NCBI RefSeq assembly: GCF_034702125.1
Contig: NC_085875.1
Coordinates: 17,128,506-17,192,505 of the forward strand
Source of the DNA: Engraulis encrasicolus
Lineage: Eukaryota; Chordata; Actinopteri; Clupeiformes; Engraulidae
Direction of reading: 5' to 3'
Length of the DNA stretch: 64,000 bases
Made by a program: the position numbers and the translations under genes. Positions 3,036 to 63,345 of this stretch are shown piece by piece. Within the stretch, counting starts at the first letter, position 1; each line of letters begins with the position of its first letter. The notes beneath the pieces were generated by a model. The model worked only from the letters and a program-made list of their open reading frames with translations, did no database searches and was not told where the DNA came from.

Positions 3036-3247
3036 CATGGCCAGGCTGTGCACCTTGTCAGCAGAGCACACCGCAGTAATGACAGACACATTTAGTTAGT
3101 GTGCAAAATATTTAGAGACAAAACAGAGGATCAGATTGAAGAGACAGAGCACACTCAGGGACTGCAGCAAAATGTTTCTTTTCACAAACCAAAATCAAGC
3201 AGTCCATTCTCCTCCCAGTGTTGTATTCTGTTTGCCTGGTTAACACC

Positions 3248-15851: not shown

Positions 15852-18800
15852 GTAAGTTATGATGACAGTCAACATCACACAGTAGGCTACATTGCATTAG
15901 GCCTACATTACATTGTTGCATGTTTCCAATGGGGGGCAAACATACAGCAACATTAGTGGTGCGGAACTACCAAGTAAATTATATTAACGTGGAAGCTTAC
16001 TTTTTGACATTGTGTGTTGGTCAGAGAATGTAACCCCTGGCAGAAAAGGAAACCTGACTGGAAGTGCAAGGAAGCTGAAGGACAATGCTGCTGACTGGCA
16101 CAACTTTAGCTTGAAGTGGGAGCGACTGAACGATGAAGGATCTGCCCATGCAACGAAAATAGTCAACCTGGTGTTAACCAAAGAGTAAGTGGCCTTATCT
16201 CTCTCTTCTATGGGGCAGGGACATTACCTGATTCCTACCATCTGATATGCTTTCGCATATACATCTGGGACCTGCCCCCAACCGACGCTCTTCCAAATGA
16301 ACCATTTTTTTCAAAACTCTTGCATGTGATTGGATTAAGAATCTGTCCGTCATTTTGACTGACACGCCATTTCAGCCACTCCCGTTGACTCAATCCGTGA
16401 CGTAGTTCACAGCGACACCACGCAGGAGGCAAGACTTTTCATCACAACAAACATGGCGGCGGCTGGAAGTAAACGGAGTAAACTTTCTATAAACGAACAT
16501 TGCCCTATGTGCAGGGGATATCTAAGGACAAATGGTAATATCTGCAACCGCCCATGGATATTTGAAGAACTTCCCTACGAGAAAGGGTAAACCAGCGCCC
16601 AGCTGAACTTGATCGAAACTTGTGAAACTTCTCCGAAAAATCCTGTCGCATGCCTGAAATGCCTGCTGTAATTTAACCCAGCGTTCTCAAGGTACGTACG
16701 GTAAGTCAACATCTTGAATCTTGATGCAATGGTTGCTCTGAAGTCGTGCGCAAGCACAATATGACAATTGTTCATCCATACATATGTCAATATTGTTATT
16801 GGATATGATTGGCTTCAGGGCATCTTCCTCTTAGCCTCTATGCTAATCTAAATGGTTTACTGTTTACATTGCTATCTAGGCACACATGCAATATGATTGT
16901 TTCACTTTTATTTGATTTATTGATTCTTTTATTTCTTTGANTTCTTTATAACCTCGCTGGGATTGTAACCTACGCACATGTCCAACGACAGAGATGTGTA
17001 AAAGTGTCTGCTTGCACTGTATTACAAACTATCACCATCATTAACAACAAGTCCCCTTCTCACAGATGCAGAAATGCAAAGCAGGGCCAAACATGCTGCA
17101 TTCAATGGGTACGAAGACGGTGTGAGGAACAACATAACAGCTCTCTTCCTGGTGGCAGCCATGGAGCACCTAGGGGCTTCATTAAGTGTCAGGTACCTCT
17201 GGAACAAAGATTTACATTACAACAAATGTATGCCCCCAGTTAAAGCTGGTGCCATGACAGTCTGTACATATTGGCTTTGCAAGATTACATCTAAGCTAAC
17301 CATACTGCACATTTTGCATTATCTATCTTTTTAAATGTGTCAACAGATATCCCTGACGGCTTCATACCTGACCACATAACCATGGGCTCTGAAGAGGGGA
17401 AAAAAGGAACAGGCTACATCCGGTAGTGGCCCGGGTGGTCAACAAATGCCATTTTCCACATGCAGTCCAGGAGGGAGACGTATAACTATACTGTAGATTT
17501 GATATTTTTACCAGCCCTTTAGCCACAGTGTGCCCACAGCGCACTGCTCGTAATTCTGCAGGTAATTTTCACTCTTTCGCATCGCTTAGCCCACAACACC
17601 TTAACAACTTGAAGTCATTTTTTGAACATAGTTGTCCCGGTCTCACTGAAACAAACAGCAGATTGGACCAGCATGTCTATTGGACTGCAGAAAATCATGG
17701 TGAACAGACAGACAAATGCACACTGGAGCACATTATGTTGCTAGTCACACAGAGGATATTTTCAGAGAGGCTGAGTTGTTTTCACCCCCCCATCTAGTCA
17801 TGACATTCTGATAAATCGCAAAAGCAGTAACCTGTGGCGCAGGATCAAAGCTAAATTGAAAGAGCGCCAAGACTAATATAAAATTGGTGGAGTAAATGCA
17901 TGTACTGTAATAATGTATGTAAATAATTTGTGTATGTAAGTAGTGTATATAAAATAACCCAGTGCAACTTTTTTTCCCATAAGATTCTGTTGCCTTTCTG
18001 TGAATGCATATAAAAAAGGTTAAGGTATGTTGTCACTTGAAGTAAATTAAACTGTGCTCAACACTAAACAGTCTACAATACTTCTTCCTTCTTTACATTT
18101 TTTTAATCATTGCTGCTCAAATAAAAAAACATGGCAACAGTTTTCAAATGTGTAATTTTATTTACAGTTCTTCTATGCAAAAACAGTCATTCATACACAT
18201 TTGTACAACAGCATGTACGAGGTTGCGGCAAAGCACTGCCAGCTACTACGCTGTGGTGTTTCACTGTCAAAATACTCATCCTTTTAATCAACATAACCTG
18301 GGATTCCCTGCACATGCAACACTTTGAAAACAGGAAGGTTGTTGGTTATGTACTATTATATGTTCGATCAAAGATATAGGGACTAATGCTCTTCTCATGT
18401 TTCTTCAATAAGCTGTGATCCAACCTAGTGCAAACTGTCCTGTTGGGTGGGCTCACTGTTGAATGGCACTCTCTCCATATGTAGCAGCTCTCTGTGTCCC
18501 ATCTTCTGTGACTGCAGATGCCATTTAAGCCATGACAGGCATGTCTGAAAGACATGGTGCATGATGTTAACAGGTATACTAGACAACCACACTTTTCCTC
18601 CTAATGACAATCGGTGCAGGCCTACTTATTTACAAGAGTGACTCACCTTCTTTGCTGTGACGTTCTCCCAACTGAGCAGGAAGGCCTTTCATTCCTGGTG
18701 GTCAGAGAAGAGCTCAGTTTATACAATACAGCAGATATTGAACATGGGCAAATTTGTAACGTGTTGAGTCTGTGTAACATAAGCAGCTCACACAAACTGG

Positions 18801-21800
18801 TCAACCCATTCTACTGGGTAGCTTGTTTAGCATAGTGAAACCCTTTGAATGTCAGTTTCGCACACCACGAAATACAATGAAAGACGGCAGCAAACGATAT
18901 CAACCATTTCACACGTTTGCCAAGTCATTTTTCAAGACCAGAATGTCAACTCACAGTCACAAACAAACGCAAAGCAAATGTCTGTACACTACAGTATGCA
19001 TCGGGCACAGTTGGGGGAGGGGAGAACCAACACCATTGTTTTTACAAGGACAATGTAATATAACACGGACAATGTGTACAGCAGAGTTAACGGAGTTTTT
19101 TTGAACATCACAGGGGGAAAACATGACGAAACTAACAGAGACATAATACAAAGTTATGACCAAGACTGTGACGATACATGTCCAAGTTAAGATTAGTCTA
19201 CAAGTAAACTACGATAAACCTAGAAGGCCAGAATGTGAACTCACAACCAAACGCAATGCACATGCCTGTGCTTCATAAATGGAAAAAATGCATCAGGTTC
19301 ATCAACAGTAGATGCTTAAACTTACCATTTGTAGGTGACGTGAACCTCATCGACAACGATGCCCAGTAGATTCTTCTGGTAGAGGTCTGAGGATAGCATG
19401 GTCAGTCATTTGTCCTTCAGCCACGACTCGGGGCTACCGAAGACCGGCTGGCCTGGCAACGTCCCTGAAGGATGTCTTCCTCCCAGTTCCATACCCGTTA
19501 GATTTCCAGCCTCTCTGACTTGGTCCTCCATTAACGCAGCCAGGGGGAACACCACAATAAAGATTGGATCCTGCACTTTCCCCATTGCTTTAGCACGTGA
19601 AATATAATCGGGTGGGATAGAACGTCTCCTAGAGCTCAGTTGGGAGTGTCCATCTCACAGCGGCTTTAGCGACCAGTGGAGCCAGCTCAAACTTTTGCCA
19701 AATCCGGTCGGAAGAAACGCAAACACATCCTCGCCGCCAACAAACGCCTTAAGCGCCGTCATTTGTTCGTATTTCAATGCCTGAACATTTGGAATACAAG
19801 ACAATACCGTGGAAATAGCCGAATCCATTTCAGCGCACTGAGTACTAGTACTACAGCGCGCTGCCATGTTTGTTGTGAAGTGAAGACTACACTGCTGTCG
19901 CTAATGCTTTACATCACATCCGCCCATAACTCCGCCCATCCATTCAAAATCCCACCCGCGATTCATGATTGGCTGTACACATTTTCCAACTCCAGCGGTC
20001 TCACTGCTATTCAGATGGGGTAGTGAGGCATGGGAACGCCCCCGCGTGACGTAGCCGAACGCAGCCAGATGATGTGAATCAGGTTAGCAGGGACAGGTAT
20101 CTTGACCAAAATATGACAACATTTACTGTACAGTGTACATCCATCAGATTTGAGATCCTAGTTTAATCAAGAAAAAAAAACGTTGCCTGTTATTCTTCCA
20201 GTCTGCATAGGCCTACAGAACATGAGTTGCCTACTTAACCAGTTATTATGACCCATCAAATCATTAGGATGGTTTGCGTGATTATAATTAAATTGACATG
20301 GATTGTCTTTGCTCTAATAATACATAGACAAGCAGTGTCGCGGACTTCTCTTTTCACTTGGATTTACTCTCATTGTCCTGCACCTGGCCCATCGGGTGGG
20401 ATGTGCACACATCTACTTCTCTGAACTTGTCTTTGCTACCAAACAGGAAGTTTAGACCAATGTTTATCAACCTCAAAGGGAATGTTTCCAAAATGGTTTC
20501 AGTGGTCTATCAGATTGAAACCCAGAGTAAAGTGTCTCTCTGGAGCTATCTATGAGGGACGGTTCCTATCTTAACTAAGTTTGAGTAATCTAGCAAAAGC
20601 CAAGCCTGCTTACAGTGCCATGAGAAAGTTTGGACACCCTTTTGGAAAATCATTACATCGGTTTATTTCTCGTTGAGCTTTTAAAGTAGCAACTTCATTT
20701 TAACATACGTTAAACTGTAGGGAAAGAGAAACATTTCAGCAGCGGAAGAATTTTCATAGGTCTTATAGAAATAATTTTATGTGGATTTAAACAAAAATAG
20801 GCGTGTGCATAAATATGGGCACCCCAAAGAAGGTATACCATTAATATGAAGTAGAGCTCACCTTTGCAGCACAAACTGGTTTTAATGACTTTGGAATCCC
20901 TTCAGTCACCAAGACAGACATGATTGGTCATCAAAATGTTATTTATCATACAAAATAGCAGACGAGGCTTGTCCTAAGTTCTGTCTTGGAGAGTGGAATA
21001 TGGTGGGCTCTGAACAAACTGTAGTTTGTTGAAAAATAGTTAAAGGGGCATGGCTAAAGGATGGTAAGAATGGTAACAGGCACACTACAGAACACCTCCA
21101 TAGAATTACAAGACCATAGCTGCTGATAGTGCAGACTTAGACATGGGTCCTTCCACGTATACTTTTCACAAGGCAAAAGCTCATTGGATGGGTGACGAAT
21201 AAAAAGGCTTTCCTGTGTATCCATCAGAAATAAGTTGTTAAACTTATGCAGAAAGCTTACCTGGACAAGCTAAAAGCATTTGGGGAAATCATAGTGTGGT
21301 CAGATGAGACTGAGCAGAGTTATTTGACCTTAACAATGGGAGGTGGACATGGCAAAAAATGCACCCATAAATTCTATGACCTCTGGTCTAAAACACACCC
21401 TACTATAGGTCTGTGTGGATAGTATACACACTGTAAAACTTATTACAGTTAAGGGCCTCACTAATTCTTTTCAAATAGCATATTTTTCAAAAGAATGTTC
21501 AAGTGTCAGTCACAAAATTAGAGCTGAGCCGAGTTTGGACTTTCCAGCAGGACAGTGTTTGCACTGCACTGATCAAAATTCAACAATGAGTTAATGTAAA
21601 ACAACAAGTACAATGTCTTGAAATGGTCATAGAAATCTTGACATATCACCATCATTGAAAAAGAATGAATTCATTTGAACCAGGATGACTAAAGAAGACA
21701 GATGAGTAAGCTGACTGAATTAGAGGGGTTCTGGATAGAATAATTGGCAACTATTCAGTAGCACCAGGCAGTTGGAACTTGTCTTCTTGTATAGCAAGTA

Positions 21801-23541
21801 TCCAAAGGCCATTAGATCAGCAAAGGTGAGCTCTACTTCATATTAATGGTATACCTTCTTTGGGGTGCCCATATTTATGCACACGCATATTTTTGTTTAA
21901 ATCCACATAACATTCTTTCTATAACACCTATGAAAATTCTTCCACGGCTGAAATGTTTCTCTTTCCCTACAGTTTAACATATGTTAAAAGGAAGTTGCTA
22001 CTTTAAAAGCTCAACGAGAAATAAACCGATGTAATGATTTTCCAAAAGGGTGCCCAAACTTTCTCATGGCACTGTATGTGCCTTTCATGTGCTTTAGGAA
22101 GTACGGTAGATATTATCCAGTCTTGGCAACTCGTATGGAAAAAAAACATGAAAATAACACGATGGGCTGCGTTCTTGTGTCTTTCCCTGTTTTTTACTGG
22201 ATTTACTGTAATGCCCAGAGCATCTGAAAGCACCATAAGTACTCCTACAGCAACAACGACTGTGATTTTTCATCCTTTTAGGCCAGTGAAGGAGACCAGT
22301 CTGATGTCAGGGGATGAGTCGACCCAGTCAGGCCCGGGGCATACTGGAGCCGGCCCACAGTCATCTCGCCCTGAACTCCACAGAGACCTTGAAGAGGAGT
22401 GCACCAAACTGCAGGACATTGTGGAGAAAATGGTACCTGTGTTTTTCTTCTTTTTTTTGTTTGTGCATGCTCTTTTCATCCATTTCTCCGATTGTAGGCC
22501 TACTGTACTTTGTTCTGTTTTTGAAAACCTACCTTTGAATGATTTTGAATTCACCCAGGCACACATGGTGTCAAAAATGGAAAAAATGGCCTCGTCTGAG
22601 AACGGCATCTGCGAGCTGGAGGCCTTTCAGTTTGGAGATAAAGGAAGGGACGCTCCCCTCTTTCTTACATGGCCCACCTCTCAGTTTGGTAAGGAACGAT
22701 CAGCGTAGGCTAATCAGAGATACAATCCTGCACTCAGTATCTGACCCAGCCATACACTGCACCAGTTAATTCTTGAAATCACCTGCAACCATTGTTTGCT
22801 CCACTTAACAGAATGCAGTTCCATGCACTGAGTGTTGAGATATCAAATGGAATATTGCCAGTATTCTGTTAAAAAAAAAAATCTGTAATATTCCGTTGAC
22901 ATGTGTGGAACCATTGACTGTGGAACACGGCCACATTCGGAATGATTAAAAAGCTTAAATGACTCCGTTGCAGACTGAATACTGCCACCATTCTGTTCAA
23001 AATCAGAATACTTCTCATATTTAACTGCCCTCACTGAGCCATATTTCTTCAAAGTATGTGCATTCCACTGTTCATTACTTTCACTGTTCCTGTGTCTGCT
23101 CATGAACTGTTCCTTGAAAACACACTATGTTATGCCTACTACATTAAAACATACCACATTATGTATTTCTAAACATACTTTACTATTGCTAAACATACTA
23201 CACTATGTTTCTGCTCAGTACAGTCAATAAAAGACTTTGATTTCAAGTATCCAGCCCTAATTTTGATTTCCTTATATGTATGTTGTGTACGAAAGAAACT
23301 ATATCATGACCAGTTTTTTTTTTTTTTTCCTGGTTCCCCAGCGGAGGTGTCCAGCCGGTTGCTGAGCTGCTACAGGCAGGAGTTGGCCCTGAAGCAGCTC
23401 CTGCTGGGCCTGCTGGCCCACACCCCAGACCCACAGCTCTCCATGGTCTACCTCTCGGCCTGGCTCTACCAGCCCTACATAGACGACCAGGCCAAACTGC
23501 TGCTGGAGGGTCTGCTCCTTGAAACAGGCCACCGGACTTAG
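15845..23541 (+). CDS. cinp: CINP, CDK2-interacting protein (5 coding exons)
   Basis: Coding exons: 15845-15851, 16025-16184, 22282-22432, 22559-22688, 23342-23541. They sum to 648 nt, giving 215 aa plus a TAG stop, close to the 212 aa recalled for human CINP. All junctions are GT-AG and the phases agree. Family blocks are visible: SARKLKDNAADWHN in exon 2, NGICELEAFQFGD and PLFLTWPTSQF in exon 4, and YLSAWLYQPYIDD plus LLLETGHR at the C-terminus. Exon 3 (LEEECTKLQDIVEKM) looks coiled-coil. CINP family proteins bind CDK2/CDC7 and replication-origin factors, take part in ATR-ATRIP checkpoint signalling, and are nuclear; this is family knowledge. The ATG was chosen because it is followed directly by a strong donor (GTAAGT) that joins in phase to exon 2. 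Intron 2 (6.1 kb) is swollen by a 3.86-kb transposon and a Tc1 element. The gene converges with ZNF839. Confidence 0.95.
16025..16184 (+). CDS. cinp: CINP coding exon 2
   Basis: The acceptor is ...TTGGTCAG and the donor GA|GTAAGT. It encodes the conserved N-terminal block SARKLKDNAADWHN..LKWE.LND. The next intron contains transposon copy 1, starting only about 40 bp past the donor. Confidence 0.93.
16453..17797 (+). pseudogene. Unrecognised plus-strand gene of the transposon, copy 1
   Basis: Coding-like pieces are separated by plausible introns: MAAAGSKRSKLSINEHCPMC.GYLRTNG from 16453; AEMQSRAKHAAFNGYEDGVR and NNITALFLVAAMEHLGASL (17066-17191, AG before, GTACCT after); IPDGFIPDHITMGSEEGKK (about 17347-17425); then RTARNSAG and LNNLKSFFEHSCPGLTETNS to a stop at 17797. 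Reading frames slip between pieces (for example GTGYIR then PVVARVVNKCHFPHAVQEGD one base off), so it looks decayed. The CPMC cysteine pair may be a zinc knuckle start. It could be the transposase or an accessory protein. Family not recognised. Confidence 0.45.
19326..19867 (-). pseudogene. RecQ-like helicase remnant, copy 1
   Basis: From ATG 19867: NVQALKYEQMTALKAFVGGE then DVFAFLPTGFGKS (Walker A, motif I). The frame then breaks (LAPLVAKAAVRWTLPTEL continues one frame over, about 7 bases missing). Next come FIVVFPLAALMEDQVREAGN (motif Ia), VFGSPESWLKDK-stop-LTMLSSDLY, and NLLGIVVDEVHVTYKW (motif II, DEVH), ending at the donor ATG|GTAAG. Downstream helicase motifs III-VI are not found, so the C-terminal half is deleted or beyond recognition. 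The family assignment rests on motifs I, Ia and II in order. Confidence 0.8.
20613..22074 (+). mobile_element. Tc1/mariner-type element with about 220-bp TIRs
   Basis: CAGTGCCATGAGAAAGTTTG at the left is mirrored by CTTTCTCATGGCACTG at the right. The inverted similarity runs about 220 bp inward on each side, to CTACTTCATATTAATGG. The TA target dinucleotide is present on both sides (20611-20612, 22075-22076). The centre holds a heavily decayed transposase; FGEIIVWSDETEQSY at about 21278 still resembles the Tc1 WSDE catalytic motif. It lies in CINP intron 2. Confidence 0.88.
22282..22432 (+). CDS. cinp: CINP coding exon 3
   Basis: The acceptor is CTTTTAG and the donor ATG|GTACCT. It encodes a variable Ser/Gly/Pro-rich linker followed by the helical segment LHRDLEEECTKLQDIVEKM, matching the position of the family's predicted coiled coil. 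Confidence 0.9.
22559..22688 (+). CDS. cinp: CINP coding exon 4
   Basis: The acceptor is TTCACCCAG and the donor TTTG|GTAAGG. It encodes MEKMASSENGICELEAFQFG and PLFLTWPTSQF, the strongest family signature in the gene. Confidence 0.95.
23342..23541 (+). CDS. cinp: CINP terminal exon
   Basis: The acceptor follows a long T tract (TTCCCCAG). It encodes the C-terminal helical region SMVYLSAWLYQPYIDDQ..LLLEGLLLETGHRT and a TAG stop at 23539-23541. The last about 60 coding bases and the start of the 3' UTR are repeated twice more downstream, at about 23629 and 23776. Confidence 0.95.
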
Positions 23542-25321: not shown

Positions 25322-36524
<11,203 letters not shown>

Positions 36525-37243: not shown

Positions 37244-37537
37244 CGTGCGTTTTAATATGCGACCTTGCCTCCTCCACTTGCCTCCTCCACTTGCTTCTCA
37301 TCATGATGACATCACTGACAACAACATTATATTTCAATATCTTGCAAAAGCTCAATTGTAAAGTCTTTTTCTCATTTGCAATTGGGATGGTGAATGAAAA
37401 ACAGTCCCTCAAAAGTTGTTGTGGCGAGGCTGACAGCTGGGAAACTTAATCGTTTTCTCCACGGAGGAGGGGCCAGGAGGCGGGACGAGGAGACAAGCAC
37501 AAGTGGAGGAGGCAAGGTCACATATTGGGATGTACAC
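37244..37537. mobile_element. Palindromic MITE, same family, copy B
   Basis: It shares the interior (ACTTTACAATTGAGC complement, CAACAACTTTTG.GG, CTCCGTGGAGAAAAC complement) with the 2733-3035 copy in the opposite orientation. The termini are diverged (GCGTGCGTTTTAATATGC / CACATATTGGGATGTAC). Confidence 0.7.
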
Positions 37538-41717: not shown

Positions 41718-60797
<19,080 letters not shown>

Positions 60798-63075: not shown

Positions 63076-63345
63076 TGCTTTCCAATATGTGGACTCCTGA
63101 CCTCAACCTGTGCTTGTGGTCATGCGTTTTACTGACGCCCCACCTCCGTGGAGAAAACAATTTCCCCGCTGTTAGCCTAGCCACAACAACTTTTGAGGGG
63201 CTATTCTTAATGCATTATACCGATTGCAAATGAGAAAATGACGTTAGAGTTGCGCTTTTGAGAGATATTGTAATATAGTTCTGTCGTCAGGGACGTCACT
63301 GCGAGGCCACAAGGGAGGACGAGAGTCTGCATATCAGAAATAACC
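63076..63345. mobile_element. Diverged MITE of the GGGTGCGTTCC family, copy D
   Basis: GTGCTTTCCAATATGTGGAC at the left, then CTCCGTGGAGAAAACAAT, TAGCCACAACAACTTTTG and GCAAATGAGAAAATGACG all parallel the copy at 2733. The right terminus has eroded. Confidence 0.65.

Follow-up and report, generated by a model that had tools for sequence, protein, structure and literature searches.

Background

The AcademH lineage of the Academ superfamily of DNA transposons reportedly goes back to Kojima 2020 (Mob DNA 11:15). Its members are described as encoding a helicase and having target site duplications (TSDs) of 9 or 10 bp, those of AcademX as encoding a nuclease and having TSDs of 3 or 4 bp, and TSD length seems to be related to the helicase or nuclease encoded (PMC10045372). 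A RecQ helicase was listed in Academ already in 2013 (PMC3627910). AcademH is reported in fungi (PMC10799480), and the title of the AcademH paper, as cited in PMC10045372, names animals and fungi; Academ copies are counted in zebrafish, medaka and stickleback in a table of PMC4746887, and a table of PMC9004415 lists an Academ fossil in human. Academ is mentioned also in PMC8290104, PMC10379824 and PMC5753468, in passages that hold nothing decisive for the element described here. A RecQ helicase is also present in KolobokH and Kolobok-1_CCri (PMC9587614), so that the helicase alone is not diagnostic of AcademH.

The element analyzed here lies in a stretch of 64,000 nucleotides of the Engraulis encrasicolus genome, referred to below as the window. 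It resembles AcademH in its animal host, in its TSD, which at 9 bp in both of its two copies falls within the stated range, and in carrying a RecQ-type helicase, of which a remnant lies on the minus strand, the helicases of AcademH being known here by description only. It differs in that both copies are without intact genes or a recognisable transposase. With AcademX it would share the superfamily, by hypothesis only, and it differs from that lineage in having a helicase instead of a nuclease and a TSD of 9 bp instead of 3 or 4 bp.

Results

Boundaries, target duplications and copies

The features of the element are listed in Table 1. A first-pass annotation of this DNA had described a DNA transposon with inverted ends of about 21 bp, a perfect 9-bp direct repeat on both sides, a near-identical second copy flanked by a different 9-bp repeat, and a RecQ-like helicase; boundaries, duplications at two unrelated sites and a helicase remnant were all found.

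Table 1. Coordinates of the two element copies and of the features recognised within them (positions in the window).
Feature	Position	Strand	Description
Left TSD, copy 1	16215..16223		9 bp, GCAGGGACA
Element copy 1	16224..20086		3863 bp
Left terminal inverted repeat (TIR), copy 1	16224..16244	+	17/21 matches with right TIR
Left subterminal inverted repeat	16423..16461	+	39 nt, 77%; holds ATG of plus-strand gene
Plus-strand gene remnant, unrecognised	16453..17797	+	Exon 1 from 16453, cysteine-containing; broken by stops
Candidate exon, plus-strand gene	~17066-17192	+	Splice-like sites
Open stretch, plus-strand gene	17486-17797	+	ORF
Helicase C-terminus piece, frameshifted	18302..18444	-	SPYIFD..YITNNLPVF; linked tblastn E 4.7e-5 with P0001
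5' part, RecQ-family helicase gene (predicted)	19325..19867	-	ATG at 19867 to splice-donor-like GTAAGT at 19325; motifs I, Ia, II
Right subterminal inverted repeat	19859..19897	-	Holds ATG of helicase gene
Right TIR, copy 1	20066..20086	-	Partner of left TIR
Right TSD, copy 1	20087..20095		9 bp, GCAGGGACA
Left TSD, copy 2	45180..45188		9 bp, AGTAGCTGT
Element copy 2	45189..49027		3839 bp; 99.4% identity to copy 1; same broken genes
Right TSD, copy 2	49028..49036		9 bp, AGTAGCTGT

The match between the two ends of copy 1 was equalled or bettered by 2 of 400,000 random pairs of 21-mers from the window. Copy 1 begins with TTACCTGATTC at 16224 and carries TAACCTGATTC on the minus strand at 20076-20086; the same ends are seen again in copy 2, at 45189 and 49017-49027. 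Exact matches to the 11-base end are confined, within the window, to the two ends of each copy, while up to 2 mismatches give 34 occurrences, against 35.7 expected. The sequence GCAGGGACA occurs twice in the window, both strands counted, at 16215 and 20087. Identical flanking 9-mers were found at 1 of 60,119 positions of the window at the spacing of copy 1, and at 1 of 60,143 positions at the spacing of copy 2 (AGTAGCTGT); the duplications of the elements themselves account for these single matches.

Of 3833 ungapped positions, 3811 are identical between the copies; the 22 differences include an N in copy 1, and some small indels are also present. Comparison of the 1-kb flanks of the two copies by blastn (E <= 1) gave no match with more than 14 bases in common, and the copies therefore go back to separate insertion events of a single transposon family. 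Duplication of a larger segment is ruled out by the unrelated flanks and the differing 9-bp duplications. The family has thus been mobile, with a 9-bp duplication at two unrelated sites, and the 22 differences over 3833 positions indicate that the movement was recent, no date being claimed. When the copies were searched against the window by blastn, they matched only themselves, and no further copies or short derivatives were seen.

The helicase gene

The helicase motifs previously read on the minus strand, PTGFGKS and DEVH, were located there, in a 5' part interrupted by a frameshift and stops. The first open stretch alone matched Pfam DEAD at 0.0038, below the cut-off, and its best PDB match, BLM, reached only 0.21; once the N-terminal part had been joined by hand, the DEAD match improved to 2.5e-9 and passed the curated cut-off.

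A protein search (500 candidates) with the N-terminal part, through motif II, gave 38 relatives, the best at 1.4e-38. According to their given names, ray-finned fish account for 16, Branchiostoma for 13, cnidarians for 4 and a hemichordate for 1, and 4 are without name; fish and amphioxus thus contribute 29 of the 38. The 13 Branchiostoma proteins are all distinct, and one anchovy cluster represents 31 sequences, a pattern that suits mobile genes and is no proof of them. The relatives range from 247 to 653 aa, several being about 590 aa long. Identity is 50-51% over 92-99% of the query for the four best matches, and 59-67% over 30-38% for three truncated proteins.

When the relatives were compared with copy 1 by tblastn (E <= 0.001), all 38 matched part of the N-terminal helicase region, and 37 of the alignments stop at element bases 3102-3117, within 0-15 bases of the splice-donor-like site; the alignment of P0025 stops earlier, at base 3195. 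Outside the overlap at the boundary, the middle parts of seven relatives matched the element with no E value better than 0.27. The frameshifted C-terminal piece was matched by P0001 (4.7e-5), P0029 (2.7e-4) and P0028 (0.005), with no convincing match from the other four relatives tested. The common stopping point and the lack of middle-part matches argue that the helicase has lost the core that would lie between motif II and the tail, about 325 residues if relative P0001 is taken as the measure.

The best solved relatives of P0001 (590 aa) are WRN (4e-31), bacterial RecQ (5e-30) and BLM (2e-27), and its match to TIGR00614 reaches 3.3e-55, yet falls below the cut-off of that model. As judged by sequence, the minus-strand gene is what remains of a helicase of the RecQ family, the RecQ likeness being seen by way of P0001. 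A tree was built from 33 of the 38 relatives together with four bacterial RecQs and the element, and the element groups there with the anchovy protein P0001, with modest support (0.85). Among 32 candidate stretches of viral contigs, relatives were found at 6 loci (23-37% identity). Prokaryote genomes gave at least 577 related stretches, the best 80 being all bacterial by title; their identity, 25-32%, is what would be expected of ordinary RecQ.

The plus-strand gene and internal anatomy

The two genes expected inside the element are both located, and both are remnants with stops or frameshifts, the helicase also appearing to be without its core. The plus-strand gene contains stops in both copies. 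In the profile search no piece of it matched a Pfam family above the cut-off, and the joined remnant had no Pfam match at E <= 10. The weak matches of the open stretch at 17486-17797, to zf-C2H2_ZN142 (0.032) and Sec8_C (0.098), are below the cut-off and not to transposases, and were set aside. Used as a query together with a minus-strand piece, the plus-strand remnant had no relative in protein searches that covered 1969 candidates at E <= 0.001 and 507 candidates at E <= 10. The gene may represent the split remains of a transposase.

The minus-strand piece, at about 18427-18722, is coding-like (ELFSDHQE..KAFLLSWENVTAKK and CLSWLKWHLQSQKMGHRELLHMERV) and lies between the N-terminal part of the helicase and its C-terminal remnant, which it adjoins. 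It had no relative in the same protein searches (1969 candidates, E <= 0.001; 507 candidates, E <= 10), and when joined it matched Pfam HMG_box_5 at 0.006, below the cut-off, a match that was set aside.

The two genes are convergent, and the starts of both lie within one pair of subterminal inverted repeats (AACAAACATGGCGGC / AACAAACATGGCAGC), each arm holding an ATG in the context AACAAACATGGC; since the repeat is the same, a promoter-like sequence may be common to both genes. No intact gene was recognised in copy 1 or copy 2. Most gene lesions are common to the two copies, which suggests a common ancestor that probably carried defects already at the time it moved; small indels differ between them, for instance one of 16 bases in exon 1 of the plus-strand gene.

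Other repeats in the window

A 1.47-kb element at 20611-22076 has inverted ends of 257 nt (96%), TACAGTGCCATGAGAAAG, with CAGTGCC beside TA at both ends, and we take it to be probably of Tc1/mariner type. An element-like stretch of 0.94 kb at 27043-27977 has inverted ends of 83 nt (96%) and starts with TGTTAAAGGGGTATGCC; its ends showed no obvious target duplication. A repeat about 131-139 nt long is dispersed over the window, at 2828-2966, 37301-37439, 58973-59103 and 63161-63298, in both orientations, its copies being 72-96% alike.

Discussion

We consider it probable that a DNA transposon of the AcademH kind, internally deleted and non-autonomous, was recently inserted twice into a fish genome. 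The evidence favours AcademH over other assignments, membership being not proven: the assignment rests on TSD length and helicase. No Academ transposase was recognised in searches against protein sequences and Pfam families, in copies that are both defective. Most likely the family belongs to AcademH as a non-autonomous family of a fish, and it may be called AcademH-like. The first-pass annotation had proposed a new or poorly described group of helicase-bearing elements with 9-bp duplications; since AcademH, with a helicase and TSDs of 9 or 10 bp, is already published (PMC10045372), as are a RecQ helicase in Academ (PMC3627910) and the occurrence of Academ in teleosts (PMC4746887), that inference is not supported.

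The plus-strand gene could instead encode a transposase of an undescribed superfamily, in a transposon that also bears a helicase. The remnant is without relatives in two protein searches and without a Pfam match above the cut-off, as this explanation would have it; it is also decayed and in short, separate pieces, and its catalytic part may have gone in an internal deletion, so that little can be concluded from the lack of relatives. AcademH, moreover, already agrees with the helicase and the length of the TSD, and we regard this explanation as unlikely. In a related version, the missing transposase would belong to no described superfamily and its pairing with RecQ would be independent of Academ, making the elements of fish and amphioxus a separate helicase-assisted group; we hold this to be improbable.

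Capture of a RecQ helicase gene by a Mutator-like (MuDR) element is likewise unlikely. Duplications of 9 bp, as seen at both copies, are typical of Mutator-like elements (MULEs), in which gene capture is known; a RecQ helicase is, to our knowledge, not a standard MuDR partner. The element differs from MuDR in its RecQ helicase and in that no MULE transposase was found: the non-helicase parts gave no Pfam match above the cut-off, a result to be read with the possible deletion of the catalytic region in mind. The relatives of the helicase form a group of similar proteins in fish and amphioxus, which suggests a resident transposon gene and not a one-off capture.

The TSDs also bear on two further superfamilies. 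The duplication of hAT elements is 8 bp long, which the 9 bp at both copies do not match; that of Kolobok is TTAA. A KolobokH-like element, to which the known Kolobok lineages with RecQ helicase would point, is highly improbable, being strongly disfavoured by TSDs of 9 bp without TTAA (GCAGGGACA, AGTAGCTGT); the hosts of these lineages are fungi or a rhodophyte, KolobokH being stated as fungi only (PMC9587614).

For the AcademH-like family, both copies, as internally deleted and non-autonomous elements, were presumably moved in trans, and recently. The DDE transposase, and with it probably the helicase, would come from a full-length relative at another place in the genome, and the transposase would mobilise the element by its inverted ends, which, possibly together with the subterminal repeats, would be its binding sites. 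Joining to target DNA would be staggered by 9 bp, the gap being filled by host repair. The helicase may unwind DNA or intermediates and aid strand separation or repair during transposition, and its action could relate to the longer stagger in comparison with AcademX (3 or 4 bp).

The element would provide a well-bounded and recently mobile example from fish for a lineage in which a link between helicase and TSD length has been suggested (PMC10045372). Two copies of 99.4% identity imply recent activity in trans, and the host genome or that of a close relative may therefore hold a working copy. Such a copy, if present, would permit a test of the role of the helicase in transposition.
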